From Siphonodentalium dalli (taxonomy: Eukaryota > Mollusca > Scaphopoda > Gadilida > Siphonodentaliidae), in assembly GCA_032622095.1 (NCBI GenBank), contig CP136069.1, forward strand, positions 166,772,394 through 166,836,393: DNA of 64,000 bases, read 5' to 3'. Below, piece by piece: positions 489 to 54,281 of this stretch. A program made the position numbers and the translations under genes. The notes beneath the pieces were generated by a model. It was given only the letters and a program-made list of their open reading frames with translations, had not been told where the DNA came from and did no database searches. Each line of letters starts with the position of its first letter. Positions within the stretch are counted from its first letter, which is position 1.

Positions 489-530
489 CTAGAGGTCAGA
501 TTCCATGGAATCAGATATACTTCCATGGTA

Positions 531-555
531 TTCCATCCCATCCCATCCCATCCCG
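531..555 (+). repeat. CATCC pentanucleotide microsatellite in L1
   Basis: Four tandem CATCC words follow the left hairpin arm. L2 and L3 have the same number and L4 has one fewer, so this is a short, variable tract at the edge of the long head. Confidence 0.8.
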
Positions 556-556
556 A

Positions 557-816
557 CCTGACCTTGGTCTTCAAAATGGTCAATCGAAGGTCAAATCGGG
601 TAAAACATGCGGATTTCCACGAAATTTGATACCTAGGGGTACTTTTGTCCGGGGAGTCTTTTGGGCGGGTCAAGTCGTGACCCCGACCTGACATTGACAT
701 TCGAAATGGTAAGTTCAAGGTCAAATCGAGTAAAACGATCGGATTTCGACGAAATTTTATACCTAGGAAAACTTTTGTCCGGGGAGTGTTTTGGACAGGT
801 CAAATCGTGACAATAT
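557..816 (+). repeat. 130 bp tandem dimer inside L1
   Basis: Two monomers start at about 557 and 687, each opening with CCTGAC and carrying AAGGTCAAATCG, GATACCTAGG-like and TTTTGTCCGGGGAGT words. The monomers are clearly diverged from each other but preserved between L copies. In L2 the second monomer has lost about 25 bp near 16040. I do not see this dimer in L5. Confidence 0.75.
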
Positions 817-974
817 GTTACTTTTACAGTAGAGCGGACATACCTATATAGTATATCGGTGAGCATATTCATGCATTTGCCTTGCTTCTTGCTAAGTCCG
901 TTTGAATTTGCGTCATGAAGAGAGGGTTTGAATTTGAGTAATATATATCACCCGTCACAACGTTATACGCTACC

Positions 975-1605
975 AGGGTTAAACCGTTCAATATAAATCA
1001 TTAAAAAGTGTACTAATCTTGCGTTTATATACTACTTATCACATCCACTCATCGAAAAGTTTTTATCTCAATATATGATTTTCGGAGTAATTTTGCCCAT
1101 TTGATCTTCGGTGGAATTTTCCAAATCTGAACCCACCCGACACAAACACTCCCTTGAGCAGGTTGCGTTTATATTAGAGAGGTCAAATTTTAGAGTCATA
1201 CCTACAGTATACCGGCTTATGTACCACCGCATTAAACTCGCTCCTACATCGGCCCGTTTGGATTTGGGGCTAAAAATCGGCTAGTGATAGACTACAGAAG
1301 TATACATATTTATGATATATAGCGTTGTCACGAGTAAACCGTTCCGTTCCATCTGAAAATTAGAAAATTGCGCTCTAGATGCGCGTGAACACTAGCTATC
1401 AGATGTACTCGTCAAAAAAAAAATTCTCGATGTTTGAATTTGAAGTATAGCGGTCAAGATTTGGGGGGGGGGGGCGTGAATAGAATATCCAAATGTACCT
1501 GCTACGGCATTACCTTGCTCTTTAATTAGCCCTTTTGGATTTGGTGGGAAGAATAGGTGCATTTTCCTGTTCCCCGTATAGCGGAAAGGGGTATATATAT
1601 ATAGT
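975..1605 (+). repeat. About 357 bp tandem dimer inside L1
   Basis: Two diverged monomers share AAACCGTTC near 982 and 1338, a CATCCACTC/GATGTACTC-like word, a GATTTTCGG-like word and GCCC(G/T)TTTGGATTTGG near the end. The second monomer of L1-L3 lacks about 110 bp that L4 keeps (about 47688-47785). The poly-G run near 1460 lies where this segment was lost. The same monomer recurs about three times in L5 (56640-57660), which links the long heads of the two families. Confidence 0.7.
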
Positions 1606-1697
1606 CACGCATTTCAATCAGTTTGGATATAAAGTTTAAATATACACAGTTATATGCCTATATATTTAATACTAATATATTTTCTTATAAATTAATA

Positions 1698-1783
1698 GCG
1701 CAGTGCGTAGTCGAGTGGTCAGAGCGTCAAACCTTCAGTTTGTGTTTTTATTGCGACGTGAGTTCGAATCCCGTCAAATTATC
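1698..1783 (+). pseudogene. tRNA-like Pol III unit, L1 copy 1
   Basis: An A-box match (TAGTCGAGTGG) and a B-box match (AGTTCGAATCC, 10 of 11 to GGTTCGANTCC) are spaced as in a tRNA gene. A T7 run at 1784-1790 follows, as expected of a Pol III terminator. U8 and A9 are present. The anticodon arm can pair as CAAA/TTTG with a 7-nt loop, but position 33 is C, not T. The D stem is broken (GTC against AGC) and the 5' and 3' ends do not form an acceptor stem. The long variable region and D loop resemble class II tRNAs (Leu or Ser). I read it as a tRNA-derived pseudogene or SINE-like head, not a working tRNA. Confidence 0.65.
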
Positions 1784-1969
1784 TTTTTTTATTTTTTATT
1801 TTTAACATGTTTTGGTGTATTTTAATCATCAAATACGAATAATACCAAACTAAAGATAATGTAAAGATGCTTTTTATATTCGATTTCAATCAGTTTGGAT
1901 ATAAAGTTTAAATATACACAGTTATATGCCTACATATTTAATACTAATATATTTTCTTATAAATTAACA

Positions 1970-2053
1970 GCGCAGTGCGTAGCCGAGTGGAGAGAGCGTC
2001 AAACATTCAGTTTGTGTTTTATTGCGACGTGAGTTCGAATCCCGTCAAATTAT
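1970..2053 (+). pseudogene. tRNA-like Pol III unit, L1 copy 2
   Basis: Second copy, 272 bp downstream. The A box is TAGCCGAGTGG, the B box is unchanged and a T7 run begins at 2055. The anticodon loop reads CATTCAG where copy 1 reads CCTTCAG, and the D-loop side differs (GGAGAGAGC against GGTCAGAGC). The acceptor stem is also absent. The B box is kept while structural stems drift, consistent with a promoter relic. Confidence 0.65.
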
Positions 2054-2155
2054 CTTTTTTTATTTTTTATTTTTAACATGTTTTGGTGTATTTTAATCAT
2101 CAAATACGAATAATACCAAACTAAAGATAATGTAAAGATGCTTTTTATATTCGAT

Positions 2156-2954
2156 AAATAACTAGAATATAAACAATATACAAATTGATCTTACGAAACT
2201 GATGATGTTTGCATGTTTCTATGTGTTTATCGTTGTTATCGCAAATGGAATAATTGGCTATACGTCGTCATTACGTTAGTAGAAATATACACCATATAAC
2301 GAAGTCTTGTGTGATCAAATTAATGTAATGTTTGTATTTTGTTTGGTTGTATATGATATGCAGTGCGTTGAAGATGCGAAAGAAAATACAAAAGTGAAAT
2401 GCACGCACGCAGATAGCTCATGACACACTATACACGATAAAATGATAATTTACCACACACCATGGGCTACACAATTTACGAATAGGTGGGTTTATATTAA
2501 AATCCAAGTTATTTGCTTTATAACGGCTCCGATATGAACTCATACCAATATAGCACTCTGGAAATGATTGTTGGAATTCGACGGGCGTTCTATCAGTTCT
2601 CTGGTAGAGGAATGAGACTGGCCCGCGGCAAGACGGGTGTATTCGAATCGGAGGTAGGTTCCATCCCACGGAGGATGGGGTAGCCGGAGGAAGGAGAGAG
2701 GGGAGTGACAAATTTTTGGCGTATATATAGATAATATATATTATATATATAAGCGGAATTATTTTGAAGAGCTCTTTTCATTTGACTGAGAAAAAAATAA
2801 TGTTCTAAGTCCAAAAGTTTTGGTTGAAATATTGGAGCCTTTTTCAAAAAGTGAAAACAAAATGAACGACTTTTCTGGGACAGGTCGATGTGGATCCGTT
2901 TTGGACTCTGGATTTCCCAAAAGTCATCTCCGTTTCGCGTGTAGCATAATCTGA
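2156..2954. other. Right part of L1: gene-free AT-rich sequence with small hairpins
   Basis: No reading frame here is convincing. It includes a weak tRNA-like pair of words (TGGTAGAGGAA near 2600 and TATTCGAATC near 2641), a 6 bp hairpin CCATCC-CACGGA-GGATGG at 2661-2678, and an alternating AT stretch at about 2718-2753. This part is conserved across L1-L4, and L4 differs at only a few bases near 49380-49425. The role is unknown. Confidence 0.55.
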
Positions 2955-3582
2955 ATCTTCGGAGGAGATGTGTTATCAAGCACATGGGCCCAAATTGCAA
3001 ACTTTGAGGGCCCGTAACTCTTGCATTTCTTCTCGGATTTCAAAAATCCTTTCCGGTATGAGTTTGTTTTCGTTCGGGAAATACATAAACTTAAATATAT
3101 GAATGTCAATCAAAATTTTATTTTGCAAACAATTTGCCCCCCACCCCAGTGTCAAAATATATGTCCGACCCTGTCAAAATTTCCTTCTCTGACTAAACTG
3201 ACAACGGTCAACACGATTATGAAAACCACATGCAGTTATCTGGAATGATACAAGAGGACAACAGAGTACAATCAAATAGAGGTTTGCCAACTATGGGCGG
3301 TAACTCCTCAGGGAAAGCGCGGACACAAGTTCTGAAGCCCGTGGGCAGTAGGGCATATCGAGATGTGTATACAGTCCAATTTTCGATGCTCTGCTCCTTA
3401 TAATTTCCGAGATAATAAAATGACATTTTTTCATATAAAGGGAGATAACTCCACGGGGTAAATGCGGACAATATCCGTTATGAGCCAAAGGCATAGAACT
3501 CATTTACCCCAACATACTTACCAAACTTGAGTTTTCTAGTACTAATACATTCCGAGATTTGGGCGTTGAAAAATACTGTAGT

Positions 3583-3610
<28 letters not shown>
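2955..3610 (+). repeat. Common tail (A type) attached to L1
   Basis: From ATCTTCGGAGG to the ATA tract this is the same as the last 656 bp of an A unit (for example 4697-5352). It marks it as A type: GTTATCAAGCAC near 2973 and GAAGCCCG near 3332. L1 plus this tail makes a complete long-head unit. Confidence 0.9.

Positions 3611-3611
<1 letters not shown>
3583..3611 (+). repeat. (ATA)n microsatellite at a unit joint
   Basis: About 9.7 ATA repeats separate the tail of one unit from the head of the next. Within the window the length goes with module type: about 9.7 repeats between A units, 7.7 between C units, 3.7 between B units, about 5.3 where an L head follows, and about 5.7 after a mini-unit. 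Confidence 0.95.
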
Positions 3612-3613
<2 letters not shown>

Positions 3614-3786
3614 AAAATAATCGAAAAAGGGCCATAACTCTGTTAAAAGATATTGGACCAACATCCGGATACCATTATTTTTAGTAGACCTTAGATGCCT
3701 TCATTCGCTAGAGATTTCGCGGTCCTCCTCCCATTAGTTTCTGAGTATTTCCAATTAAACAGAAAACGGCCGCAGTAGAAAAACAA

Positions 3787-3817
3787 TATACTTCCTTGGT
3801 TACACCATGGAAGTATA
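3787..3817. other. A/B/C-type head hairpin
   Basis: Outer arms TATACTTCC and GGAAGTATA pair over 9 bp. After a T-T mismatch, TGG pairs with CCA around a TTACA loop. The same hairpin starts at 5529, 7271, 9013, 10755, 12497, 14239, 19059, 20791, 22518, 22738, 24480, 26222, 31071, 32806, 34541, 36276, 38011, 39746, 39966, 41709, 43453, 45195, 50559, 52283, 52503 and 54246. It is followed by a short ATA run. In mini-units that run goes straight into the next unit. Confidence 0.85.
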
Positions 3818-4287
3818 ATAATAGGATCAATCATGAGTGGAAAGAATCGCAGTTTATGGACGGAAAATATGAAGTATGGTGATTATATGTTGTCCTAATA
3901 TGTGTAGGTTGATCTCAAGTGTTTGGACGTGACCCCACCCCTGCCTCGAAATTGGGTGACGGGATTGGGAAAACATCAACCCCTGGCACAAACTGCTAAG
4001 TTTGAGGCCCCGTAACTTCGTCAGTTTCCAACGGATTTTAAAGTTGTTTCCAGTTTTGTGATTTGCGGCTGACATAGATTGCATAGTATAAATTTCATCT
4101 GATTTGGATACGGATAACACTTTGATTATTGGAAAGCATATGGGCCCAAATTCAAACTTGTACGGCCAAGATCTCCGCCATTTTCCAACGTATTTACGAT
4201 CTGTGTTCAGCTTCGAGATCGGCTGATGTTGCAGATATTATATTCCAAGTTTCATCTGATTCCGAGAAGAATTAAAATTCGGCACCA

Positions 4288-4312
4288 CGGACCACCCCTC
4301 CCCAGACCCACA
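4288..4312 (-). other. G-rich tract on the minus strand, recurring
   Basis: The plus strand reads ACCACCCCTCCCCAGACCC, so the minus strand has runs of three, four and four G plus GG. This could form a two-tier quadruplex. The same tract lies about 300 bp downstream in each unit (near 4586), so two copies recur per 1.7 kb across A, B and C arrays. Confidence 0.5.
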
Positions 4313-5324
4313 ATAATGAACCGACACTGGCAACATTTGGCCCACCGCGTGCCGTCTCCAGTCCGTACGCATTTTCGTATCAGATGACATCCTATGTTCG
4401 ATATCTTCGGAGGAGATGTGTTATCAAGCACATGGGCCCAAAATTGCAAAGTTTGAGGGCCCGCGATTCTTTTAGTTTTCGATGGATTTTCGAAATTCGT
4501 CCAGTTTCTAGATCGGCTGATGTTGCAGATGTTATATTCCAAGTTTCATCTGATTCCGAGAAGAATTAAAAATTGGTACCACGGACCACCCCTCCCCAGA
4601 CCCACAATAATGAACCGACACTGACAAAATTTGGCCCACCGCGTGCCCTCTTCCGTCCGCACACGTTGGCGTATCAGCTGACATCCAAACTTCGACATCT
4701 TCGGAGGAGATGTGTTATCAAGCACATGGGCCCAAATTGCAAACTTTGAGGGCCCGTAACTCTTGCATTTCTTCTCGGATTTCAAAAATCCTTTCCGGTA
4801 TGAGTTTGTTTTCGTTCGGGAAATACATAAACTTAAATATATGAATGTCAATCAAAATTTTATTTTGCAAACAATTTGCCCCCCACCCCAGTGTCAAAAT
4901 ATATGTCCGACCCTGTCAAAATTTCCTTCTCTGACTAAACTGACAACGGTCAACACGATTATGAAAACCACATGCAGTTATCTGGAATGATACAAGAGGA
5001 CAACAGAGTACAATCAAATAGAGGTTTGCCAACTATGGGCGGTAACTCCTCAGGGAAAGCGCGGACACAAGTTCTGAAGCCCGTGGGCAGTAGGGCATAT
5101 CGAGATGTGTATACAGTCCAATTTTCGATGCTCTGCTCCTTATAATTTCCGAGATAATAAAATGACATTTTTTCATATAAAGGGAGATAACTCCACGGGG
5201 TAAATGCGGACAATATCCGTTATGAGCCAAAGGCATAGAACTCATTTACCCCAACATACTTACCAAACTTGAGTTTTCTAGTACTAATACATTCCGAGAT
5301 TTGGGCGTTGAAAAATACTGTAGT

Positions 5325-5352
<28 letters not shown>

Positions 5353-5355
<3 letters not shown>

Positions 5356-7066
5356 AAAATAATCGAAAAAGGGCCATAACTCTGTTAAAAGATATTGGAC
5401 CAACATCCGGATACCATTATTTTTAGTAGACCTTAGATGCCTTCATTCGCTAGAGATTTCGCGGTCCTCCTCCCATTAGTTTCTGAGTATTTCCAATTAA
5501 ACAGAAAACGGCCGCAGTAGAAAAACAATATACTTCCTTGGTTACACCATGGAAGTATAATAATAGGATCAATCATGAGTGGAAAGAATCGCAGTTTATG
5601 GACGGAAAATATGAAGTATGGTGATTATATGTTGTCCTAATATGTGTAGGTTGATCTCAAGTGTTTGGACGTGACCCCACCCCTGCCTCGAAATTGGGTG
5701 ACGGGATTGGGAAAACATCAACCCCTGGCACAAACTGCTAAGTTTGAGGCCCCGTAACTTCGTCAGTTTCCAACGGATTTTAAAGTTGTTTCCAGTTTTG
5801 TGATTTGCGGCTGACATAGATTGCATAGTATAAATTTCATCTGATTTGGATACGGATAACACTTTGATTATTGGAAAGCATATGGGCCCAAATTCAAACT
5901 TGTACGGCCAAGATCTCCGCCATTTTCCAACGTATTTACGATCTGTGTTCAGCTTCGAGATCGGCTGATGTTGCAGATATTATATTCCAAGTTTCATCTG
6001 ATTCCGAGAAGAATTAAAATTCGGCACCACGGACCACCCCTCCCCAGACCCACAATAATGAACCGACACTGGCAACATTTGGCCCACCGCGTGCCGTCTC
6101 CAGTCCGTACGCATTTTCGTATCAGATGACATCCTATGTTCGATATCTTCGGAGGAGATGTGTTATCAAGCACATGGGCCCAAAATTGCAAAGTTTGAGG
6201 GCCCGCGATTCTTTTAGTTTTCGATGGATTTTCGAAATTCGTCCAGTTTCTAGATCGGCTGATGTTGCAGATGTTATATTCCAAGTTTCATCTGATTCCG
6301 AGAAGAATTAAAAATTGGTACCACGGACCACCCCTCCCCAGACCCACAATAATGAACCGACACTGACAAAATTTGGCCCACCGCGTGCCCTCTTCCGTCC
6401 GCACACGTTGGCGTATCAGCTGACATCCAAACTTCGACATCTTCGGAGGAGATGTGTTATCAAGCACATGGGCCCAAATTGCAAACTTTGAGGGCCCGTA
6501 ACTCTTGCATTTCTTCTCGGATTTCAAAAATCCTTTCCGGTATGAGTTTGTTTTCGTTCGGGAAATACATAAACTTAAATATATGAATGTCAATCAAAAT
6601 TTTATTTTGCAAACAATTTGCCCCCCACCCCAGTGTCAAAATATATGTCCGACCCTGTCAAAATTTCCTTCTCTGACTAAACTGACAACGGTCAACACGA
6701 TTATGAAAACCACATGCAGTTATCTGGAATGATACAAGAGGACAACAGAGTACAATCAAATAGAGGTTTGCCAACTATGGGCGGTAACTCCTCAGGGAAA
6801 GCGCGGACACAAGTTCTGAAGCCCGTGGGCAGTAGGGCATATCGAGATGTGTATACAGTCCAATTTTCGATGCTCTGCTCCTTATAATTTCCGAGATAAT
6901 AAAATGACATTTTTTCATATAAAGGGAGATAACTCCACGGGGTAAATGCGGACAATATCCGTTATGAGCCAAAGGCATAGAACTCATTTACCCCAACATA
7001 CTTACCAAACTTGAGTTTTCTAGTACTAATACATTCCGAGATTTGGGCGTTGAAAAATACTGTAGT

Positions 7067-7094
<28 letters not shown>
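5353..7094 (+). repeat. A unit 2
   Basis: Identical in length to unit 1 and shares its A at the equivalent site (6366), which no later A unit in this block shows. That pairs units 1 and 2 as the most recent duplication or conversion at this end of the array. Confidence 0.95.
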
Positions 7095-7097
<3 letters not shown>

Positions 7098-8808
7098 AAA
7101 ATAATCGAAAAAGGGCCATAACTCTGTTAAAAGATATTGGACCAACATCCGGATACCATTATTTTTAGTAGACCTTAGATGCCTTCATTCGCTAGAGATT
7201 TCGCGGTCCTCCTCCCATTAGTTTCTGAGTATTTCCAATTAAACAGAAAACGGCCGCAGTAGAAAAACAATATACTTCCTTGGTTACACCATGGAAGTAT
7301 AATAATAGGATCAATCATGAGTGGAAAGAATCGCAGTTTATGGACGGAAAATATGAAGTATGGTGATTATATGTTGTCCTAATATGTGTAGGTTGATCTC
7401 AAGTGTTTGGACGTGACCCCACCCCTGCCTCGAAATTGGGTGACGGGATTGGGAAAACATCAACCCCTGGCACAAACTGCTAAGTTTGAGGCCCCGTAAC
7501 TTCGTCAGTTTCCAACGGATTTTAAAGTTGTTTCCAGTTTTGTGATTTGCGGCTGACATAGATTGCATAGTATAAATTTCATCTGATTTGGATACGGATA
7601 ACACTTTGATTATTGGAAAGCATATGGGCCCAAATTCAAACTTGTACGGCCAAGATCTCCGCCATTTTCCAACGTATTTACGATCTGTGTTCAGCTTCGA
7701 GATCGGCTGATGTTGCAGATATTATATTCCAAGTTTCATCTGATTCCGAGAAGAATTAAAATTCGGCACCACGGACCACCCCTCCCCAGACCCACAATAA
7801 TGAACCGACACTGGCAACATTTGGCCCACCGCGTGCCGTCTCCAGTCCGTACGCATTTTCGTATCAGATGACATCCTATGTTCGATATCTTCGGAGGAGA
7901 TGTGTTATCAAGCACATGGGCCCAAAATTGCAAAGTTTGAGGGCCCGCGATTCTTTTAGTTTTCGATGGATTTTCGAAATTCGTCCAGTTTCTAGATCGG
8001 CTGATGTTGCAGATGTTATATTCCAAGTTTCATCTGATTCCGAGAAGAATTAAAAATTGGTACCACGGACCACCCCTCCCCAGACCCACAATAATGAACC
8101 GACACTGGCAAAATTTGGCCCACCGCGTGCCCTCTTCCGTCCGCACACGTTGGCGTATCAGCTGACATCCAAACTTCGACATCTTCGGAGGAGATGTGTT
8201 ATCAAGCACATGGGCCCAAATTGCAAACTTTGAGGGCCCGTAACTCTTGCATTTCTTCTCGGATTTCAAAAATCCTTTCCGGTATGAGTTTGTTTTCGTT
8301 CGGGAAATACATAAACTTAAATATATGAATGTCAATCAAAATTTTATTTTGCAAACAATTTGCCCCCCACCCCAGTGTCAAAATATATGTCCGACCCTGT
8401 CAAAATTTCCTTCTCTGACTAAACTGACAACGGTCAACACGATTATGAAAACCACATGCAGTTATCTGGAATGATACAAGAGGACAACAGAGTACAATCA
8501 AATAGAGGTTTGCCAACTATGGGCGGTAACTCCTCAGGGAAAGCGCGGACACAAGTTCTGAAGCCCGTGGGCAGTAGGGCATATCGAGATGTGTATACAG
8601 TCCAATTTTCGATGCTCTGCTCCTTATAATTTCCGAGATAATAAAATGACATTTTTTCATATAAAGGGAGATAACTCCACGGGGTAAATGCGGACAATAT
8701 CCGTTATGAGCCAAAGGCATAGAACTCATTTACCCCAACATACTTACCAAACTTGAGTTTTCTAGTACTAATACATTCCGAGATTTGGGCGTTGAAAAAT
8801 ACTGTAGT

Positions 8809-8836
<28 letters not shown>
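7095..8836 (+). repeat. A unit 3
   Basis: 1742 bp. It has the majority base (GGCAAAATTT near 8105). No private difference stood out on reading. Confidence 0.95.
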
Positions 8837-8839
<3 letters not shown>

Positions 8840-10550
8840 AAAATAATCGAAAAAGGGCCATAACTCTGTTAAAAGATATTGGACCAACATCCGGATACCA
8901 TTATTTTTAGTAGACCTTAGATGCCTTCATTCGCTAGAGATTTCGCGGTCCTCCTCCCATTAGTTTCTGAGTATTTCCAATTAAACAGAAAACGGCCGCA
9001 GTAGAAAAACAATATACTTCCTTGGTTACACCATGGAAGTATAATAATAGGATCAATCATGAGTGGAAAGAATCGCAGTTTATGGACGGAAAATATGAAG
9101 TATGGTGATTATATGTTGTCCTAATATGTGTAGGTTGATCTCAAGTGTTTGGACGTGACCCCACCCCTGCCTCGAAATTGGGTGACGGGATTGGGAAAAC
9201 ATCAACCCCTGGCACAAACTGCTAAGTTTGAGGCCCCGTAACTTCGTCAGTTTCCAACGGATTTTAAAGTTGTTTCCAGTTTTGTGATTTGCGGCTGACA
9301 TAGATTGCATAGTATAAATTTCATCTGATTTGGATACGGATAACACTTTGATTATTGGAAAGCATATGGGCCCAAATTCAAACTTGTACGGCCAAGATCT
9401 CCGCCATTTTCCAACGTATTTACGATCTGTGTTCAGCTTCGAGATCGGCTGATGTTGCAGATATTATATTCCAAGTTTCATCTGATTCCGAGAAGAATTA
9501 AAATTCGGCACCACGGACCACCCCTCCCCAGACCCACAATAATGAACCGACACTGGCAACATTTGGCCCACCGCGTGCCGTCTCCAGTCCGTACGCATTT
9601 TCGTATCAGATGACATCCTATGTTCGATATCTTCGGAGGAGATGTGTTATCAAGCACATGGGCCCAAAATTGCAAAGTTTGAGGGCCCGCGATTCTTTTA
9701 GTTTTCGATGGATTTTCGAAATTCGTCCAGTTTCTAGATCGGCTGATGTTGCAGATGTTATATTCCAAGTTTCATCTGATTCCGAGAAGAATTAAAAATT
9801 GGTACCACGGACCACCCCTCCCCAGACCCACAATAATGAACCGACACTGGCAAAATTTGGCCCACCGCGTGCCCTCTTCCGTCCGCACACGTTGGCGTAT
9901 CAGCTGACATCCAAACTTCGACATCTTCGGAGGAGATGTGTTATCAAGCACATGGGCCCAAATTGCAAACTTTGAGGGCCCGTAACTCTTGCATTTCTTC
10001 TCGGATTTCAAAAATCCTTTCCGGTATGAGTTTGTTTTCGTTCGGGAAATACATAAACTTAAATATATGAATGTCAATCAAAATTTTATTTTGCAAACAA
10101 TTTGCCCCCCACCCCAGTGTCAAAATATATGTCCGACCCTGTCAAAATTTCCTTTTCTGACTAAACTGACAACGGTCAACACGATTATGAAAACCACATG
10201 CAGTTATCTGGAATGATACAAGAGGACAACAGAGTACAATCAAATAGAGGTTTGCCAACTATGGGCGGTAACTCCTCAGGGAAAGCGCGGACACAAGTTC
10301 TGAAGCCCGTGGGCAGTAGGGCATATCGAGATGTGTATACAGTCCAATTTTCGATGCTCTGCTCCTTATAATTTCCGAGATAATAAAATGACATTTTTTC
10401 ATATAAAGGGAGATAACTCCACGGGGTAAATGCGGACAATATCCGTTATGAGCCAAAGGCATAGAACTCATTTACCCCAACATACTTACCAAACTTGAGT
10501 TTTCTAGTACTAATACATTCCGAGATTTGGGCGTTGAAAAATACTGTAGT

Positions 10551-10578
<28 letters not shown>
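8837..10578 (+). repeat. A unit 4
   Basis: 1742 bp with a private C-to-T change at 10155 (CCTTTTCTG instead of CCTTCTCTG) in the tail. Confidence 0.95.

Positions 10579-10581
<3 letters not shown>

Positions 10582-12292: not shown

Positions 12293-12320
<28 letters not shown>
10579..12320 (+). repeat. A unit 5
   Basis: 1742 bp, consensus sequence as far as I can see by eye. Confidence 0.95.

Positions 12321-12323
<3 letters not shown>

Positions 12324-14034: not shown

Positions 14035-14062
<28 letters not shown>
12321..14062 (+). repeat. A unit 6
   Basis: 1742 bp, consensus sequence as far as I can see by eye. Confidence 0.95.
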
Positions 14063-14065
<3 letters not shown>

Positions 14066-16979: not shown

Positions 16980-17066
16980 GCGCAGTGCGTAGTCGAGTGG
17001 TCAGAGCGTCAAACCTTCAGTTTGTGTTTTTATTGCGACGTGAGTTCGAATCCCGTCAAATTATCT
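16980..17066 (+). pseudogene. tRNA-like Pol III unit, L2 copy 1
   Basis: Same A box (TAGTCGAGTGG), B box (AGTTCGAATCC) and T7 terminator as the first unit of L1. The T-rich trailer behind the terminator has an extra T. It lacks an acceptor stem. Confidence 0.65.

Positions 17067-41504: not shown

Positions 41505-41532
<28 letters not shown>
39790..41532 (+). repeat. A unit, block 3, first (1743 bp)
   Basis: A subtype; the extra base is a seventh C in the tail C run near 41059. Confidence 0.95.

Positions 41533-41535
<3 letters not shown>

Positions 41536-43248: not shown

Positions 43249-43276
<28 letters not shown>
41533..43276 (+). repeat. A unit, block 3, second (1744 bp)
   Basis: Eight-base C run near 42801, the longest of the set. 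The longer run shifts frames and is a likely place for a consensus error. Confidence 0.95.
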
Positions 43277-43279
<3 letters not shown>

Positions 43280-44990
43280 AAAATAATCGAAAAAGGGCCA
43301 TAACTCTGTTAAAAGATATTGGACCAACATCCGGATACCATTATTTTTAGTAGACCTTAGATGCCTTCATTCGCTAGAGATTTCGCGGTCCTCCTCCCAT
43401 TAGTTTCTGAGTATTTCCAATTAAACAGAAAACGGCCGCAGTAGAAAAACAATATACTTCCTTGGTTACACCATGGAAGTATAATAATAGGATCAATCAT
43501 GAGTGGAAAGAATCGCAGTTTATGGACGGAAAATATGAAGTATGGTGATTATATGTTGTCCTAATATGTGTAGGTTGATCTCAAGTGTTTGGACGTGACC
43601 CCACCCCTGCCTCGAAATTGGGTGACGGGATTGGGAAAACATCAACCCCTGGCACAAACTGCTAAGTTTGAGGCCCCGTAACTTCGTCAGTTTCCAACGG
43701 ATTTTAAAGTTGTTTCCAGTTTTGTGATTTGCGGCTGACATAGATTGCATAGTATAAATTTCATCTGATTTGGATACGGATAACACTTTGATTATTGGAA
43801 AGCATATGGGCCCAAATTCAAACTTGTACGGCCAAGATCTCCGCCATTTTCCAACGTATTTACGATCTGTGTTCAGCTTCGAGATCGGCTGATGTTACAG
43901 ATATTATATTCCAAGTTTCATCTGATTCCGAGAAGAATTAAAATTCGGCACCACGGACCACCCCTCCCCAGACCCACAATAATGAACCGACACTGGCAAC
44001 ATTTGGCCCACCGCGTGCCGTCTCCAGTCCGTACGCATTTTCGTATCAGATGACATCCTATGTTCGATATCTTCGGAGGAGATGTGTTATCAAGCACATG
44101 GGCCCAAAATTGCAAAGTTTGAGGGCCCGCGATTCTTTTAGTTTTCGATGGATTTTCGAAATTCGTCCAGTTTCTAGATCGGCTGATGTTGCAGATGTTA
44201 TATTCCAAGTTTCATCTGATTCCGAGAAGAATTAAAAATTGGTACCACGGACCACCCCTCCCCAGACCCACAATAATGAACCGACACTGGCAAAATTTGG
44301 CCCACCGCGTGCCCTCTTCCGTCCGCACACGTTGGCGTATCAGCTGACATCCAAACTTCGACATCTTCGGAGGAGATGTGTTATCAAGCACATGGGCCCA
44401 AATTGCAAACTTTGAGGGCCCGTAACTCTTGCATTTCTTCTCGGATTTCAAAAATCCTTTCCGGTATGAGTTTGTTTTCGTTCGGGAAATACATAAACTT
44501 AAATATATGAATGTCAATCAAAATTTTATTTTGCAAACAATTTGCCCCCCACCCCAGTGTCAAAATATATGTCCGACCCTGTCAAAATTTCCTTCTCTGA
44601 CTAAACTGACAACGGTCAACACGATTATGAAAACCACATGCAGTTATCTGGAATGATACAAGAGGACAACAGAGTACAATCAAATAGAGGTTTGCCAACT
44701 ATGGGCGGTAACTCCTCAGGGAAAGCGCGGACACAAGTTCTGAAGCCCGTGGGCAGTAGGGCATATCGAGATGTGTATACAGTCCAATTTTCGATGCTCT
44801 GCTCCTTATAATTTCCGAGATAATAAAATGACATTTTTTCATATAAAGGGAGATAACTCCACGGGGTAAATGCGGACAATATCCGTTATGAGCCAAAGGC
44901 ATAGAACTCATTTACCCCAACATACTTACCAAACTTGAGTTTTCTAGTACTAATACATTCCGAGATTTGGGCGTTGAAAAATACTGTAGT

Positions 44991-45018
<28 letters not shown>
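43277..45018 (+). repeat. A unit, block 3, third
   Basis: 1742 bp with a six-base C run and a private G-to-A change near 43897 (GATGTTACAG instead of GATGTTGCAG). Confidence 0.95.
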
Positions 45019-45021
<3 letters not shown>

Positions 45022-46749
45022 AAAATAATCGAAAAAGGGCCATAACTCTGTTAAAAGATATTGGACCAACATCCGGATACCATTATTTTTAGTAGACCTT
45101 AGATGCCTTCATTCGCTAGAGATTTCGCGGTCCTCCTCCCATTAGTTTCTGAGTATTTCCAATTAAACAGAAAACGGCCGCAGTAGAAAAACAATATACT
45201 TCCTTGGTTACACCATGGAAGTATAATAATAGGATCAATCATGAGTGGAAAGAATCGCAGTTTATGGACGGAAAATATGAAGTATGGTGATTATATGTTG
45301 TCCTAATATGTGTAGGTTGATCTCAAGTGTTTGGACGTGACCCCACCCCTGCCTCGAAATTGGGTGACGGGATTGGGAAAACATCAACCCCTGGCACAAA
45401 CTGCTAAGTTTGAGGCCCCGTAACTTCGTCAGTTTCCAACGGATTTTAAAGTTGTTTCCAGTTTTGTGATTTGCGGCTGACATAGATTGCATAGTATAAA
45501 TTTCATCTGATTTGGATACGGATAACACTTTGATTATTGGAAAGCATATGGGCCCAAATTCAAACTTGTACGGCCAAGATCTCCGCCATTTTCCAACGTA
45601 TTTACGATCTGTGTTCAGCTTCGAGATCGGCTGATGTTGCAGATATTATATTCCAAGTTTCATCTGATTCCGAGAAGAATTAAAATTCGGCACCACGGAC
45701 CACCCCTCCCCAGACCCACAATAATGAACCGACACTGGCAACATTTGGCCCACCGCGTGCCGTCTCCAGTCCGTACGCATTTTCGTATCAGATGACATCC
45801 TATGTTCGATATCTTCGGAGGAGATGTGTTATCAAGCACATGGGCCCAAAATTGCAAAGTTTGAGGGCCCGCGATTCTTTTAGTTTTCGATGGATTTTCG
45901 AAATTCGTCCAGTTTCTAGATCGGCTGATGTTGCAGATGTTATATTCCAAGTTTCATCTGATTCCGAGAAGAATTAAAAATTGGTACCACGGACCACCCC
46001 TCCCCAGACCCACAATAATGAACCGACACTGGCAAAATTTGGCCCACCGCGTGCCCTCTTCCGTCCGCACACGTTGGCGTATCAGCTGACATCCAAACTT
46101 CGACATCTTCGGAGGAGATGTGTTATCAAGCACATGGGCCCAAATTGCAAACTTTGAGGGCCCGTAACTCTTGCATTTCTTCTCGGATTTCAAAAATCCT
46201 TTCCGGTATGAGTTTGTTTTCGTTCGGGAAATACATAAACTTAAATATATGAATGTCAATCAAAATTTTATTTTGCAAACAATTTGCCCCCCCACCCCAG
46301 TGTCAAAATATATGTCCGACCCTGTCAAAATTTCCTTCTCTGACTAAACTGACAACGGTCAACACGATTATGAAAACCACATGCAGTTATCTGGAATGAT
46401 ACAAGAGGACAACAGAGTACAATCAAATAGAGGTTTGCCAACTATGGGCGGTAACTCCTCAGGGAAAGCGCGGACACAAGTTCTGAAGCCCGTGGGCAGT
46501 AGGGCATATCGAGATGTGTATACAGTCCAATTTTCGATGCTCTGCTCCTTATAATTTCCGAGATAATAAAATGACATTTTTTCATATAAAGGGAGATAAC
46601 TCCACGGGGTAAATGCGGACAATATCCGTTATGAGCCAAAGGCATAGAACTCATTTACCCCAACATACTTACCAAACTTGAGTTTTCTAGTACTAATACA
46701 TTCCGAGATTTGGGCGTTGAAAAATACTGTAGTATAATAATAATAATAA
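45019..46749 (+). repeat. A unit, block 3, last before L4
   Basis: Full unit with a shortened ATA tract ahead of L4 and a seven-base C run near 46287. Confidence 0.95.
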
Positions 46750-48024
46750 CTAGAGGTCAGATTCCATGGAATCAGATATACTTCCATGGTATTCCATCCC
46801 ATCCCATCCCGACCTGACCTTGGCCTTCAAAATTGTCAATCCAAGGTCAAATCGGGTAAAACAGACGGATTTCCACGAAATTTGATACCTAGGGGTACTT
46901 TTGTCCGGGGAGTCTTTGGGCGGGTCAAGTCGTGACCCCGACCTGACATTGACCTTCGAAATGGTCAGTTCAAGGTCAAATCGGGTAAAACGAACGGATT
47001 TCGACGAAATTTGATACCTAGGAAAACTGTTGTCCGGGGAGTGTTTTGGATAGGTCAAATCGTGACAATAGGTTACTTTTATAGTAGAGCGGACATACCT
47101 ATATAGTATATATGTGAGCATATTCATGCATTTGCCTTGCTTCTTGATAAGTCCGTTTGAATTTGCGTCATGAAGAGAGGGTTTGAATTTGAGTAATATA
47201 TATCACCCGTCACAACGTTGTACGCTACCAGGGTTAAACCGCTCAATATAAATCATTAAAAAGTGTACTAATCTTGCGTTTAGATACTACTTATCACATC
47301 CACTCATCGAAAAGTTTTTATCTCAATATATGATTTTCGGAGTAATTTTGCCCATTTGATCTTCGGTGGAATTTTCCAAATCTGAACCCACCCGACATAA
47401 ACACTCCCTTGAGCAGGTTGCGTTTATATTAGAGAGGTCAAATTTTAGAGGCATACCTACATTATGCCGGCTTATGTACCACCGCATTAAACCCGCGCCT
47501 ACATCAGCCCGTTTGGATTTGGGGCTAAAAATCGGCTAGTGATAGACTACAGAAGTATACATATTTATTATATATAGCGTTGTCACGAGTAAACCGTTCC
47601 ATCTGAAAATTCGAAAATGACACTTTAGATGCGCGTGAAAACTACCCATCAGATGTACTCGTCAAAATGTTTTTATCTCGATGTTTGAATGTTGCCCCTT
47701 TGCGATTTTCGGTGGAATTTACCAAAAGTCTCAACCCACCCCATCTTGCATTCTCCGCTGGGTAGGTTACTTTTAAAGTATAGCGGTCAAGATTGGGGGG
47801 GGGTGGCTTGAATAGAATATCCAAATGTACCTGCTACGGGCATTACCTTGCTCTTTAATTAGCCCGTTTGGATTTGGTGGGAAGAATAGGTGCATTTTCC
47901 CGTTCCCCGTATATAGCGGCAAGGGGTATATATAGTCACGCATTTCAATCAGTTTTGATATAAAGTTTATACACAGTTATATGCCTATATATTTAATACT
48001 AATATATTTTCTTATAAATTAACA

Positions 48025-48109
48025 GCGCAGTGCGTAGCTGAGTGGTGACAGCGTCAAACCTTCAGTTTGTGTTTTATTGCGACGTGAGTTCGAATCCCGT
48101 CAAATTATC
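48025..48109 (+). pseudogene. tRNA-like Pol III unit, L4 copy 1
   Basis: The A box TAGCTGAGTGG sits in a D arm whose stem pairs fully (GCT with AGC), unlike L1-L3. The B box is AGTTCGAATCC. The terminator is weaker: TACTA separates the unit from a T run near 48115. The acceptor stem is still missing. It is one of the two best-preserved copies structurally. Confidence 0.65.
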
Positions 48110-48432
48110 TACTATTTTTTTTTTTTTTTAACATGCTTTGGTGTATTTTAATCATCAAATACGAATAATACCAAACTAAAGATAATGTAAAGATGCTTTT
48201 TATATTCGGGGGGTGGCTTGAATAGAATATCCAAATGTACCTGCTACGGGCATTACCTTGCTCTTTAATTAGCCCGTTTGGATTTGGTGGAAAGAATAGG
48301 TGCATTTTCCCGTTCCCCGTATAGCGACAAGGGGTATATATAGTCACGCATTTCAATCAGTTTTGATATAAAGTTTATACACAGTTATATGCCTATATAT
48401 TTAATACTAATATATTTTCTTATAAATTAACA

Positions 48433-48517
48433 GCGCAGTCCTTAGCTGAGTGGCGAAAGCGTCAAACCTTCAGTTTGTGTTTTATTGCGACGTGAGTTCG
48501 AATCCCGTCAAATTATC
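48433..48517 (+). pseudogene. tRNA-like Pol III unit, L4 copy 2
   Basis: Also has a paired D stem (GCT/AGC), with the D loop reading GAGTGGCGAA. The 5' end reads CAGTCCTTAG rather than CAGTGCGTAG. A T-rich run starts near 48524. Confidence 0.6.
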
Positions 48518-48616
48518 TACTAGTTTTTTTTTTTTTTAACATGCTTTGGTGTATTTTAATCATCAAATACGAATAATACCAAACTAAAGGTAATGTAAAG
48601 ATGCTTTTTATATTCG

Positions 48617-48958
48617 AATCGGATATAAAACAATAAACACGTGGGTCGGTTTTCGCATATATAACATGAAGCGCGCTTAATGAACGTTCGGTCCGAAGAA
48701 TATAATGAGTGATTAACAACAACACACAAATAGTTTGAACGTAATCGAACAGAAAAGAGCGTTCTCTATAAGTAGATTCCTTTATGGTAGGAATAATGAG
48801 CGGATGTTTCACGTTTGCTTTTTTGACAAGACTTAAATGACGGAGTACGAAACTATCAGTGGTGTTTTAGTTTGCGAAAGTATAAAAGGAGTCATTTCCA
48901 ATTCGGCAGACATATACTCACGGAAAGAATTGAATGTCTATCAGCAGTATACTACGGT
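48617..48958. other. Segment present only in L4
   Basis: About 340 bp with no counterpart in L1-L3, where TTCGATAAATAACTAG joins directly to the AACAATATAC block. No reading frame, tRNA or terminal repeat stands out, so a deletion in L1-L3 seems more likely than a transposon insertion in L4. Confidence 0.65.
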
Positions 48959-49744
48959 TTATAACAATATACAAATTGATCTTACGAAACTGATGATGTT
49001 TGCATGTTTCTATGTGTTATCGTTGTTATCGCAAATGGAATAATTGGCTATACGTCGTCATTACGTTAGTAGAAATATACACCATATAACGAAGTCTTGT
49101 GTGATCAAATTAATGTAATGTTTGTATTTTGTTTGGTTGTATATGATATGCAGTGCGTTGAAGATGCGAAAGAAAATACAAAAGTGAAATGCACGCACGC
49201 AGATAGCTCATGACACACTATACACGATAAAATGATAATTTACCACACACCATGGGCTACACAATTTACGAATAGGTGGGTTTATATTAAAATCCAAGTT
49301 ATTTGCTTTATAACGGCTCCGATATGAACTCATACCAATATAGCACTCTGGAAATGATTGTTGGAATTCGACGGGCGTTCTAACAGTTCTCTGGTAGAGG
49401 AATGAGACTGGACCGCGGCATGACGGGTGTATTCGAATCGGAGGTAGGTTCCATCCCACGGAGGATGGGGTAGCCGGAGGAAGGAGAGAGGGGAGTGACA
49501 AATTTTTGGCGTATATATAGATAATATATATTATATATATAAGCGGAATTATTTTGAAGAGCTCTTTTCACTTGACTGAGAAAAAAATAATGTTCTAAGT
49601 CCAAAAGTTTTGGTTGAAATATTGGAGCCTTTTTCAAAAAGTGAAAACAAAATGAACGACTTTACTGGGACAGGTCGATTTGGATCCGTTTTGGACTCTG
49701 GATTTCCCAAAAGTCATCTCCGTTTCGCGTGTAGCATAATATGA

Positions 49745-50382
49745 ATCTTCGGAGGAGATGTGTTATCAAGCACATGGGCCCAAATTGCAAACTTTGAGGG
49801 CCCGTAACTCTAGCATTTCTTCTCGGATTTCAAAAATCCTTTCCGGTATGAGTTTGTTTTCGTTCGGGAAATACATAAACTTAAATATATGAATGTCAAT
49901 AAAAAATTTATTTTTCAAAAAATTTGCCCCCCACCCCAGTGTCAAAATATATGTCCGACCCTGTCAAATTTTCCTTCTCTGACTAAACTGACAACGGTCA
50001 ACACGACTATGAAAACCACATGCAGTTATCTGGAATGATACAAGAGGACAACATAGTACAATCAAATAGAGGTTTGCCAACTATGGGCGGTAACTCCTCA
50101 GGGAAAGCGCGGACACAAGTTCTGATGCCCGTGGGCAGTAGGGCATATCGAGATGTGCATACAGTCCAATTTTCGATGCTCTGCTCCTTATAATTTCCGA
50201 GATAATCAAATGACATTTTTTCAGATAAAGGGAGATAACTCCTCGGGGAAAACGCGGACAATATTCGTTATGCGACGATGGCATACAACTCTTTGATCCC
50301 AAGATACGTGCCAAGTTTTAGTTTGCTACTCCTGTTACTTTTCGAGTAATAAGGGTTGCAAAAGTGTCCAGTATAATAATAA
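49745..50382 (+). repeat. Common tail (B type) attached to L4
   Basis: B-type tail with CTCTAGCATTTC near 49807, GATAATCAAATG near 50202 and the short ATA tract. The joint itself reads GTTATCAAGCAC. It lacks the extra bases seen in the B tail after L2. Confidence 0.9.
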
Positions 50383-52106
50383 TGAAAAATAATCGAAAAA
50401 GGGCCATAACTCTGTTAAAAGATATTGGACCAACATCCGGATACCATTATTTTTAGTAGACCTTAGATGCCTTCATTCGCTAGAGATTTCGCGGTCCTCC
50501 TCCCATTAGTTTCTGAGTATTTCCAATTAAACAGAAAACGGCCGCAGTAGAAAAACAATATACTTCCTTGGTTACACCATGGAAGTATAATAATAGGAAC
50601 AATCATGAGTGAAAAGAATCGCAGTTTATGGACGGAAAATATAAAGTATGGTGATTATATGTTGTCCTAACATGTGTAGGTTGATCTCAAGTGTTTGGAC
50701 GTGACCCCACCCCTGCCTCGAAATTGGGTGACGGGATTGGGAAAACATCAACCCCTGGCACAAAATGCTAAGTTTGAGGCCCCGTAACTCCGTTAGTTTC
50801 CAACGGATTTTAAAATTGTTTCCATTTTTGTGATTTGCTGCTAACATAGATTACATAGTATAAATTTCATCTGATTTGGAGACGGATAACACTTTGATTA
50901 TTGGAAAGCATATGGGCCCAAATTAAAACTTGGACGGCCAAAATCTCCGCCATTTTTCAACGGATTTACGATCTGTTTTCAGCTTCCAGATCGGCTGATG
51001 TTGCAAATGTTATATTCCAAGTTTAATCCGATTCCGAGAAGAATTAAAAATTGGTACCACGGACCACCCCTCCCCAGACCCACAATACTGAACCGACACT
51101 GGACAAATTTGGCCCACCGCGTGCCGTCTTCAGTCCGTACGCATTTTCGTATCAGATGACATCCTATGTTCGATATCTTCGGAGGAGATGTGTTATCAAG
51201 CACACGGGCCCAAAATTGCAAAGTTTGAGGGGCCGCAATTCTTTCAGTTTTTGATGGATTTTCGAAATTATTTCACTTTCTAGATCGGCTGATGTTGCAG
51301 ATGTTAGATTCCAAGTTTCATCTGATTCCGAGAAGAATTAAAAATTGGTACCACGGACCACCCCTCCCCAGACCCACAATAATGAACCGACACTGGCAAA
51401 ATTTAGCCCACCGCGTGCCCTCTTCAGTCCGCACACATTGGCGTATCAGATGACATCCTATGTTCGATATCTTCGGAGGAGATGTGTTATCAAGCACATG
51501 GGCCCAAATTGCAAACTTTGAGGGCCCGTAACTCTAGCATTTCTTCTCGGATTTCAAAAATCCTTTCCGGTATGAGTTTGTTTTCGTTCGGGAAATACAT
51601 AAACTTAAATATATGAATGTCAATAAAAAATTTATTTTTCAAAAAATTTGCCCCCCACCCCAGTGTCAAAATATATGTCCGACCCTGTCAAATTTTCCTT
51701 CTCTGACTAAACTGACAACGGTCAACACGACTATGAAAACCACATGCAGTTATCTGGAATGATACAAGAGGACAACATAGTACAATCAAATAGAGGTTTG
51801 CCAACTATGGGCGGTAACTCCTCAGGGAAAGCGCGGACACAAGTTCTGATGCCCGTGGGCAGTAGGGCATATCGAGATGTGCATACAGTCCAATTTTCGA
51901 TGCTCTGCTCCTTATAATTTCCGAGATAATCAAATGACATTTTTTCAGATAAAGGGAGATAACTCCTCGGGGAAAACGCGGACAATATTCGTTATGCGAC
52001 GATGGCATACAACTCTTTGATCCCAAGATACGTGCCAAGTTTTAGTTTGCTACTCCTGTTACTTTTCGAGTAATAAGGGTTGCAAAAGTGTCCAGTATAA
52101 TAATAA
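50383..52106 (+). repeat. B unit, block 4 (1724 bp)
   Basis: A clean B copy, 4-7 bp shorter than the two at 18883 and 20614. It is the best reference for the B subtype in this window. It has one visible private change (TTATTTCAC near 51270 where the others read TTATTCCAC). Confidence 0.9.
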
Positions 52107-52326
52107 TGAAAAATAATCGAAAAAGGGCCATAACTCTGTTAAAAGATATTGGACCAACATCCGGATACCATTATTTTTAGTAGACCTTAGATGCCTTCAT
52201 TCGCTAGAGATTTCGCGGTCCTCCTCCCATTAGTTTCTGAGTATTTCCAATTAAACAGAAAACGGCCGCAGTAGAAAAACAATATACTTCCTTGGTTACA
52301 CCATGGAAGTATAATAATAATAATAA
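52107..52326 (+). repeat. Mini-unit (220 bp) at the second B-to-A switch
   Basis: Head-only module with hairpin start at 52283, matching the mini-units at 22342 and 39570 in length and content. Confidence 0.9.
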
Positions 52327-54041
52327 TGAAAAATAATCGAAAAAGGGCCATAACTCTGTTAAAAGATATTGGACCAACATCCGGATACCATTATTTTTAG
52401 TAGACCTTAGATGCCTTCATTCGCTAGAGATTTCGCGGTCCTCCTCCCATTAGTTTCTGAGTATTTCCAATTAAACAGAAAACGGCCGCAGTAGAAAAAC
52501 AATATACTTCCTTGGTTACACCATGGAAGTATAATAATAGGATCAATCATGAGTGGAAAGAATCGCAGTTTATGGACGGAAAATATGAAGTATGGTGATT
52601 ATATGTTGTCCTAATATGTGTAGGTTGATCTCAAGTGTTTGGACGTGACCCCACCCCTGCCTCGAAATTGGGTGACGGGATTGGGAAAACATCAACCCCT
52701 GGCACAAACTGCTAAGTTTGAGGCCCCGTAACTTCGTCAGTTTCCAACGGATTTTAAAGTTGTTTCCAGTTTTGTGATTTGCGGCTGACATAGATTGCAT
52801 AGTATAAATTTCATCTGATTTGGATACGGATAACACTTTGATTATTGGAAAGCATATGGGCCCAAATTCAAACTTGTACGGCCAAGATCTCCGCCATTTT
52901 CCAACGTATTTACGATCTGTGTTCAGCTTCGAGATCGGCTGATGTTGCAGATATTATATTCCAAGTTTCATCTGATTCCGAGAAGAATTAAAATTCGGCA
53001 CCACGGACCACCCCTCCCCAGACCCACAATAATGAACCGACACTGGCAACATTTGGCCCACCGCGTGCCGTCTCCAGTCCGTACGCATTTTCGTATCAGA
53101 TGACATCCTATGTTCGATATCTTCGGAGGAGATGTGTTATCAAGCACATGGGCCCAAAATTGCAAAGTTTGAGGGCCCGCGATTCTTTTAGTTTTCGATG
53201 GATTTTCGAAATTCGTCCAGTTTCTAGATCGGCTGATGTTGCAGATGTTATATTCCAAGTTTCATCTGATTCCGAGAAGAATTAAAAATTGGTACCACGG
53301 ACCACCCCTCCCCAGACCCACAATAATGAACCGACACTGGCAAAATTTGGCCCACCGCGTGCCCTCTTCCGTCCGCACACGTTGGCGTATCAGCTGACAT
53401 CCAAACTTCGACATCTTCGGAGGAGATGTGTTATCAAGCACATGGGCCCAAATTGCAAACTTTGAGGGCCCGTAACTCTTGCATTTCTTCTCGGATTTCA
53501 AAAATCCTTTCCGGTATGAGTTTGTTTTCGTTCGGGAAATACATAAACTTAAATATATGAATGTCAATCAAAATTTTATTTTGCAAACAATTTGCCCCCC
53601 CACCCCAGTGTCAAAATATATGTCCGACCCTGTCAAAATTTCCTTCTCTGACTAAACTGACAACGGTCAACACGATTATGAAAACCACATGCAGTTATCT
53701 GGAATGATACAAGAGGACAACAGAGTACAATCAAATAGAGGTTTGCCAACTATGGGCGGTAACTCCTCAGGGAAAGCGCGGACACAAGTTCTGAAGCCCG
53801 TGGGCAGTAGGGCATATCGAGATGTGTATACAGTCCAATTTTCGATGCTCTGCTCCTTATAATTTCCGAGATAATAAAATGACATTTTTTCATATAAAGG
53901 GAGATAACTCCACGGGGTAAATGCGGACAATATCCGTTATGAGCCAAAGGCATAGAACTCATTTACCCCAACATACTTACCAAACTTGAGTTTTCTAGTA
54001 CTAATACATTCCGAGATTTGGGCGTTGAAAAATACTGTAGT

Positions 54042-54069
<28 letters not shown>
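52327..54069 (+). repeat. A unit, block 4 (1743 bp)
   Basis: Single A unit with a seven-base C run near 53595. It is followed by another head-only module rather than by an L head. Confidence 0.95.
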
Positions 54070-54072
<3 letters not shown>

Positions 54073-54281
54073 AAAATAATCGAAAAAGGGCCATAACTCT
54101 GTTAAAAGATATTGGACCAACATCCGGATACCATTATTTTTAGTAGACCTTAGATGCCTTCATTCGCTAGAGATTTCGCGGTCCTCCTCCCATTAGTTTC
54201 TGAGTATTTCCAATTAAACAGAAAACGGCCGCAGTAGAAAAACAATATACTTCCTTGGTTACACCATGGAAGTATAATAAT
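54070..54281 (+). repeat. Mini-unit (212 bp) at the A-to-D switch
   Basis: Head with hairpin from 54246 and a short ATA run that passes directly into a family D head (ATTGGAAAAAAATAA). The change between two diverged families therefore falls at the same place as the changes between subtypes. Confidence 0.9.

Follow-up and report, generated by a model that had tools for sequence, protein, structure and literature searches.

Nested elements with Helitron/Helentron-type ends probably underlie an apparent higher-order repeat in the scaphopod Siphonodentalium dalli

The stretch analysed here (the window) comprises 64,000 nucleotides of the scaphopod mollusc Siphonodentalium dalli (NCBI GenBank assembly GCA_032622095.1, contig CP136069.1, hereafter C9, C9:166772394-166836393), from a genome of 2,226,750,531 bases (2.23 Gb) in 9 contigs. 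All 64 kb are tiled without a gap by L heads, units of types A, B and C, mini-units and a related D family, which to the right of element E1 continues the same layout, with a head L' at 55671 followed by D units. A first-pass annotation had described a three-level tandem architecture; monomers and tandem units of 1.7 kb are present, while the third level, which had been taken for a higher-order repeat, is very probably composed of nested, non-autonomous rolling-circle transposons of Helitron/Helentron type on the reverse strand. Decomposition of the window together with the flanking contig confirmed the L-plus-array layout, which continues on both sides (20 kb to the left and 30 kb to the right, giving 114 kb with the window). 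The features are listed below in window coordinates, (-) denoting the reverse strand.

1-488 (-): tail of the D1 host unit, the insertion site of E1, ending (AAT)5AA
489-54277 (-): element E1, 29.5 kb of its own sequence plus the nested E2-E4, with 15 A units, delimited by termini, empty-site test and tiling; 3' end (CTAG) at 489, 5' end (TTATACTTCC) at 54277, host a microsatellite of the D1 array
489-2954 (-): L1, the 3' region of E1; the reverse strand ends CCATGGAAGTATA-TCT-GATTCCATGGAATC-TGACCTCTAG, then TT
2955-3582 (-): T1, the unit tail that adjoins L1, with 99.8-100% identity to the A tails used for comparison
3583-15792 (-): E1 units A1-A7, including microsatellite as far as the point where E2 is inserted
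3583-3823 (-): one instance of the 5' segment (LF) present in all units, with (ATA)n, a linker of ~205 bp ending in the hairpin ATACTTCCTTGGTTACACCATGGAAGTAT, then AATAATA
15793-22549 (-): element E2 in E1, with L2, T2, B1, B2 and a terminal 5' segment at 22332-22549; empty site, 9-nt B-type microsatellite
22550-27776 (-): E1 resumed, A8-A10
27777-39777 (-): element E3 in E1, with L3, T3, C1-C5 and a terminal 5' segment at 39548-39777; 21-nt C-type microsatellite
39778-46749 (-): E1 resumed, A11-A14
46750-52314 (-): element E4 in E1, with L4 (2995 bp), T4, B3 and a terminal 5' segment at 52097-52314
52315-54277 (-): E1 resumed, A15 and the terminal 5' segment m1 at 54042-54277; 27-nt A-type microsatellite
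54278-55670 (-): D1 host array resumed after E1
55671-62829 (-): element F (D family), in D1 like E1, with L', TDx, Dx, an inner 5' segment, Dy1, Dy2 and a terminal 5' segment
62830-64000 (-): D1 host array resumed after F, continuing to the right of the window

The layout and coordinates given by the first-pass annotation stand. Four L heads start at 489, 15793, 27777 and 46750 and open blocks which, taken up to 54281, measure 15304, 11984, 18973 and 7532 bp, in line with the first-pass figures of 15.3, 12.0, 19.0 and 7.5 kb, and the order of L, matching tail, B or C units, mini-unit and A units recurs in the tiling. All modules share one orientation, with self-BLAST (E 1e-5) giving opposite-strand matches only for one palindromic right-flank repeat, at 59937-60034 and 62799-62893. 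The A units (n=15) measure 1742-1744 bp, or 1730-1731 bp directly after an insert, the B units (n=3) 1724-1731 bp and the C units (n=5) 1735 bp. Mini-units of 214, 226 and 214 bp follow the B, C and B arrays respectively, and a fourth copy of 232 bp, absent from the first-pass annotation, lies at 54042. Full units are 99.8-100% (A-A and C-C) or 99.1-99.5% (B-B) identical within a type, and ~97% (A-C), ~94% (A-B) or ~93% (B-C) identical between types. Each tail after an L matches the array that follows it, T1 that of A as listed, T3 that of C (100%), T4 that of B (99.8-100%) and T2 also that of B (98.1-98.3%), these identities being measured against selected units. L1-L3 are mutually 99.7-99.8% alike, L4 being 96.3% identical to L1. 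The monomers are weak, with ~2-3 diverged copies per unit at a period of ~293 bp, 84% and 69% alike.

On the reverse strand, every L head represents the 3' end of an element, composed of a subterminal repeat, a palindrome and CTAG and followed by host TT, and each mini-unit is the element's 5' end, TTATACTTCC plus a hairpin. The mini-unit ends on this strand as A/TTATACTTCCATGG-TGTAA-CCAAGGAAGTATA, where the slash marks the junction. The 3' end of L' reads ...ATATGGAAGTAT-C-AAAATTCTG..CAGAATTTT-AACCCTCTAG/TT, in which AAAATTCTG..CAGAATTTT forms the palindrome before CTAG, and the D-family 5' end is TTATACTTCCATAT..ATATGGAAGTATA. In both L and L' the palindrome finishes 10 nt before the CTAG 3' end, in agreement with canonical Helitrons, which have a CTRR terminus preceded by a palindrome ~11 nt upstream. 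The opposite orientation, with the 3' end at the mini-unit, was the first idea and was overturned by the CTAG/palindrome end and the empty sites described below.

Six CTAG-headed inserts with four 3'-end types are present in the D1 array over the 114 kb, each spanning CTAG to TTATACTTCC. In all six, the 3' subterminal repeat is the perfect complement of the insert's own 5' repeat (14, 14, 13, 12, 11 and 11 nt), and random 60-mer pairs reached the E1 or the F match in 0 of 1000 cases each. The 5' and 3' subterminal repeats therefore co-vary across the four end types, which indicates that the two ends belong together. Helentrons and HINEs are recognised by subterminal inverted repeats that are identical over 11 nt or more at the two ends, here 11-14 nt, and by an inverted repeat complementary to the 5' subterminal one, a microsatellite and a 3' palindrome, all of which are found. 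At the empty sites of E1-E4 and F the ends are of proto-Helentron type (5' TT, 3' CTAG, insertion between A and T, no target duplication), although in a (TTA)n target the two T can be assigned to either side of the junction. The ratio of 5' hairpins to 3' ends is 16:1 in E1, 3:1 in E2, 6:1 in E3, 2:1 in E4 and 5:1 in F, the arrangement of many 5' ends and a single 3' end by which tandem Helitron arrays are defined. The 5' segment itself is oddly invariant: none of its 214 columns differ in four A/B/C unit pairs, while elsewhere 50-113 of ~1,500 do, and its 63-nt D version is identical in 7/7 window copies, with 86% identity in an older element to the right of the window. Such invariance could be due to conversion or to selection acting on the end.

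The nesting order follows from the insertion sites. E2, E3 and E4 sit in the (TTA)n microsatellite between A units of E1, and deletion of each rejoins the flanks as an exact 27-nt A-A junction (3/3). Deletion of E1 or F leaves 22 nt, the length of six uninterrupted D1-D1 junctions found by a pattern search of the flanks, which missed D units with a different tail spelling; two 25-nt junctions in the same search are Dy units. The mini-unit microsatellite tracks the preceding array, with 9 nt after B (2/2), 21 nt after C (1/1) and 27 nt after A (1/1), and the mini-unit thus closes that element instead of opening the A units. With the A units that follow a mini-unit, E1 resumes, so that the recurring grammar of L, tail, B or C, mini-unit and A is an inserted element followed by its host. 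Across blocks, the A units form one near-identical set (99.8-100%), B, C and L4 being more distant. A longer C-run in A10-A12, A14 and A15 (87/3003 placements are as clustered) agrees with one array; it is a homopolymer difference and is given no weight. The D1 array carries further inserts in the flanks, where it continues on both sides; among these inserts are two ending CTAGAATTTTTAAACTTCC (6.8 and 10.5 kb) and a 7.3-kb older relative of E1 with units 83-89% like A.

Copies of these elements extend well beyond the locus. The exact 36-nt 3' end occurs 1,129 times genome-wide (585 forward, 544 reverse), the reversed-pattern control giving 0. Flanks of 60 nt were sorted for 20 copies, hand-picked from the first 100 listed, all lying below 65 Mb on C1, with only some members of each cluster taken, a sample in which own-family hosts are probably under-represented. 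AA precedes CTAG (TT follows it on the other strand) in 20/20, in keeping with the TT target preference of Helentrons and HINEs, and the host, judged by eye, is non-family DNA in 16/20 and own-family sequence in 4/20. At the 16 non-self sites the 6 nt preceding AA match AATAAT at 3.56 of 6 positions, compared with 2.07 (standard deviation 0.34) at other offsets, a fit equalled in 1 of 20,000 resamplings of AA-followed windows. In this small sample the target sites resemble AATAATAA, and each element carries a copy of this preferred target. A second set, the 20 best matches to 712 bp of L1 (window copy included), is biased to the newest copies and was sorted by eye; 16 of the 20 lie in the microsatellite after a family unit tail, one abuts a 5' end, one is within a 5' segment and two are elsewhere. 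At 82 places in the genome, the 5' hairpin is continued by ATAA plus a base other than T. Of 20 such hairpins fetched, nine directly abut the CTAG of another element (two of the nine with the same flank), and at least four others, which have a flank in common, resemble inner units of a variant array rather than ends. Among the 3' ends listed, many are grouped in clusters of a single orientation, in some cases near the end of a contig (C1:0.06-0.35 Mb; C9:0.29-0.46 Mb and 214.51-214.88 Mb, C9 being 214.91 Mb long).

Both the direction and the point of insertion are regular. All nine (TAA)n/CTAG termini in the 114 kb run in the same direction, with none reversed, because TT is present on only one strand of (TTA)n. 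CTAG lies 17 nt from the D1 tail in 6/6 cases and, for A-type tails (n=92), at 16 nt in 79, 13 nt in 9, 25 nt in 2, 28 nt in 1 and 17 nt in 1. This spacing bears on the alternative that a single insertion in an A array was multiplied by unequal exchange, with later conversion bringing in the B and C units and L4, which would explain why all three insertions use the same triplet and why 79/92 A/L junctions genome-wide share one spacing; the 15 near-identical A units also speak for it. It is nevertheless improbable, since four 3'-end types occupy the same D1 position, which is impossible by copying one event, and L4 is 3.7% different with a 408-bp duplication of its own. This tandem duplication lies at 47798-48616, and the middle part of L4 is longer than in L1-L3. 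If the four independent end types were free among ~7 triplets, simple arithmetic puts the chance of their agreement at ~1 in 340. Some junctions may be copies of one event, and the constant spacing would be expected either if an enzyme measures from the tail or if some A-type junctions spread as copies inside composites.

Collapsed or misjoined repeats, by which the block order would be an assembly artefact, provide a distinctly unlikely explanation. The near-identical A units are hard to assemble in their correct number, and window positions 44692-62692 recur inverted at C9:214776000-214794000, with 18,001/18,001 positions identical. The junctions, on the other hand, are nucleotide-exact and biologically sensible, and the same junction types occur at many other loci. 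Either this segment was duplicated very recently in the genome, or the assembly contains one piece at two places.

That the L-plus-array block is the unit of a true higher-order repeat, copied by unequal exchange, is very unlikely, even though the blocks recur in order and orientation and L1-L3 are so closely alike. The modules of a higher-order satellite block should diverge together, whereas those found here differ in age: A units across blocks differ by at most ~0.2%, compared with 3.7% between L4 and L1-L3 and 7% between B and C. In addition, the mini-unit microsatellites match the upstream array, the empty sites are exact, and the sampled L heads stand mostly in unrelated DNA (16/20). The first-pass contrast with scattered transposons does not hold either, as the L-head 3' ends are themselves scattered through the genome, with varied flanks where sampled. 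Recombination between microsatellites or template switching, joining unrelated modules without transposition, would suit the A-L, D-L, mini-A and A-D joints, all of which lie in (ATA)n runs, but can practically be dismissed, most sampled copies being outside family microsatellites with the same CTAG end and preceding AA, and the paired ends co-varying across four types.

Under the favoured reading as nested rolling-circle transposons, an element consists, from its 5' end, of TTATACTTCC (subterminal repeat and hairpin), a short segment, (TTA)n, a unit body and more tandem 5' units, and on its 3' side of a single L region, the 3' subterminal repeat, the palindrome and CTAG-3'. Rolling-circle movement would be driven by a Helitron Rep/Helicase, the candidate being an OTU-bearing Helitron gene of ~2,800 codons elsewhere in this genome, and a circle joining before TT would enter (TTA)n one way only. 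As each unit carries the preferred (TTA)n, elements would keep landing in one another's arrays, and nests would then be copied as composites, starting at an outer 5' end and stopping at the 3' end reached first, producing many 5' ends and mixed unit types such as those of F. With two unit types (Dx and two Dy), inner and terminal 5' ends and a single L', F reads as a composite of two elements. Two further doubled 5' ends without CTAG before them are found in the left flank, as if the D1 host were perhaps itself composite. The identical units within one element may stem either from rolling-circle rounds without a 3' terminator or from unequal exchange; both published routes to multiple 5' ends fit, and unequal exchange is also compatible with the 15 A units. 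A more far-reaching proposal, held with somewhat less than even confidence, is that a living Helentron lineage carries its own landing site, fixed ~16-17 nt (5 triplets) from the tail and used in a single orientation, and gives rise to self-feeding satellite-like arrays via composites.

No protein gene was found in the window, the longest stop-to-stop frame listed being 185 amino acids (aa), and a Pfam scan of 10 frames returned one weak PORR match and none above cut-off. No structured RNA or tRNA was detected in the window, Rfam (E up to 5, 14035-20610) giving only a weak snoRNA match. Within L there is a tandem duplication of 271-272 bp, at 16893-17439 and also at 1611-2155 and 28902-29446, with what we take to be a tRNA-promoter-like stretch (TAGCCGAGTGG ... 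GAGTTCGAATCC, then T runs), although no tRNA was called. An origin from tRNA or short interspersed elements (SINE), or from a ribosomal DNA spacer, was dropped on the tRNA and Rfam results despite the two copies of this stretch in L, and a telomeric retroelement array was dropped as none of three telomere motifs tried occurs in the window. Viral and plasmid collections gave no match to the one pattern and one stretch tried. In the B unit compared (20435-20603, and in other B tails), the last ~150-170 bp are 60-87% identical to A and the remainder 87-100%; by eye this end resembles D ends, which suggests inter-family exchange.

Elsewhere in the genome, the Helitron Rep domain was matched at least 151 times, in many cases within a long open frame, with scores obtained for 150 of 457 candidates. 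A lower-scoring class (~90-111 bits) includes open frames of 2,239-2,864 aa, and a second class is abundant, with scores of 160-216 bits, many frames of ~1,600 aa and several copies of equal score. The first 114 bp of the E1 3' end recur identically at C8:164598514, joined to other sequence, and at a distance of 15.6 kb, in the correct orientation, lies a 2,805-aa frame with a Rep domain and, in the fetched N-terminal part, an OTU domain; a matching 5' end and the C-terminal part of this frame were not found in the stretches fetched. A comparison on C1 took in the 22 Rep matches below 223.9 Mb, where the 3'-end listing stops. For two 91-bit frames, of 2,691 and 2,739 aa, the distance to a 3' end on the correct side is 26 and 28 kb, a 2,347-aa frame (111 bits) lies 2.8 Mb away, a frame of the other class lies 32 kb away on the wrong side, and the remaining 18 matches are >140 kb from any listed 3' end.

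Several observations weigh against the transposon reading or complicate it. The 5' end, TTATACTTCC, is TTATAC and not the TC of canonical Helitrons, and the target-site sample is small and hand-picked. With free insertion, less regularity would be expected than the nearly constant five triplets from the tail. At three B-tail hosts outside the window, CTAG is preceded by 16 nt, as opposed to 9 nt at the window's five B-tail joints, and seven D-D joints of the left flank measure 16 nt, not 22, with tails that are 98.8-99.0% D1-like. Given F and the doubled 5' ends, simple nesting needs an extra composite step. Finally, the elements contain no gene, no intact autonomous copy was traced end to end, and the Rep frames stand 15.6-28 kb from the nearest matching 3' end.

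The origins of satellites and higher-order repeats are usually inferred long afterwards. The events here look fresh, the near-identity of the A units and the exact empty sites allowing insertion, nesting and amplification to be ordered one by one. The locus also serves as a warning that a higher-order grammar in an assembly can arise from transposition alone. As the family is abundant and has many identical 3' ends, the target rule and the rolling-circle step are directly testable. If the model is true, the elements show how such transposons can build large ordered repeat arrays.

Among known systems, the proto-Helentron of Phytophthora infestans is a ~14-kb autonomous element with 5' TT, 3' CTAG and insertion between A and T (PMC4067079), and the elements described here have the same termini and A/T insertion, likewise without target duplication. 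OTU-like proteases are listed among the proteins of such elements (PMC4067079), and an OTU domain is also present in the candidate partner. Unlike the autonomous proto-Helentron, the present elements are non-autonomous and possess internal tandem 5' units. HINE/DINE-1 elements, including Cg_HINE of the Pacific oyster, share with them a 5' subterminal repeat and complementary inverted repeat followed by a microsatellite, central repeats, a 3' subterminal repeat with palindrome, the absence of target duplication, a T-rich or TT target and a modular mixing of ends and repeats (PMC4067079, PMC7492417). In Cg_HINE a ~165-bp core is repeated between one left and one right flank (PMC7492417), whereas here a 1.4-1.7-kb unit holds the 5' end and the microsatellite. 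The resemblance to bivalve repeat elements may be regarded as a literature lead, not as an identification.

The terminator-loss route to multiple 5' ends is reportedly to be credited to Xiong et al. 2016. By this route the 3' terminator is lost from the circle, giving tandem 5' copies and one 3' end (PMC12628747, PMC8268682). The FoHeli composites of Fusarium are proposed to form when an element inserts into another and a later transposition begins at the outer 5' end and terminates at whichever 3' end comes first, which also results in multiple 5' ends (PMC5148889). Many 5' ends with a single 3' end are thus common to both systems and to the elements described here, and the FoHeli route would account for composites such as F. 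Helitron-like elements are also said, going by the title of Coates et al. 2010, to disrupt (GAAA)n microsatellites in Lepidoptera, and on the title alone microsatellite insertion is a trait in common. Multi-5'-end arrays, nested or self-inserting Helitrons and microsatellite insertion each have precedent. A literature search, with subscription papers mostly outside it, found no report of a Helitron with its preferred target in its own repeated unit and same-orientation nesting. For Fusarium, a single case of nesting is described and the 5' piece that is duplicated usually measures <200 bp (PMC5148889); here, by contrast, elements have nested repeatedly and in a single orientation, the microsatellite that they enter being part of the units of the element itself, and the new aspects are this self-carried landing pad and the near-constant insertion point.

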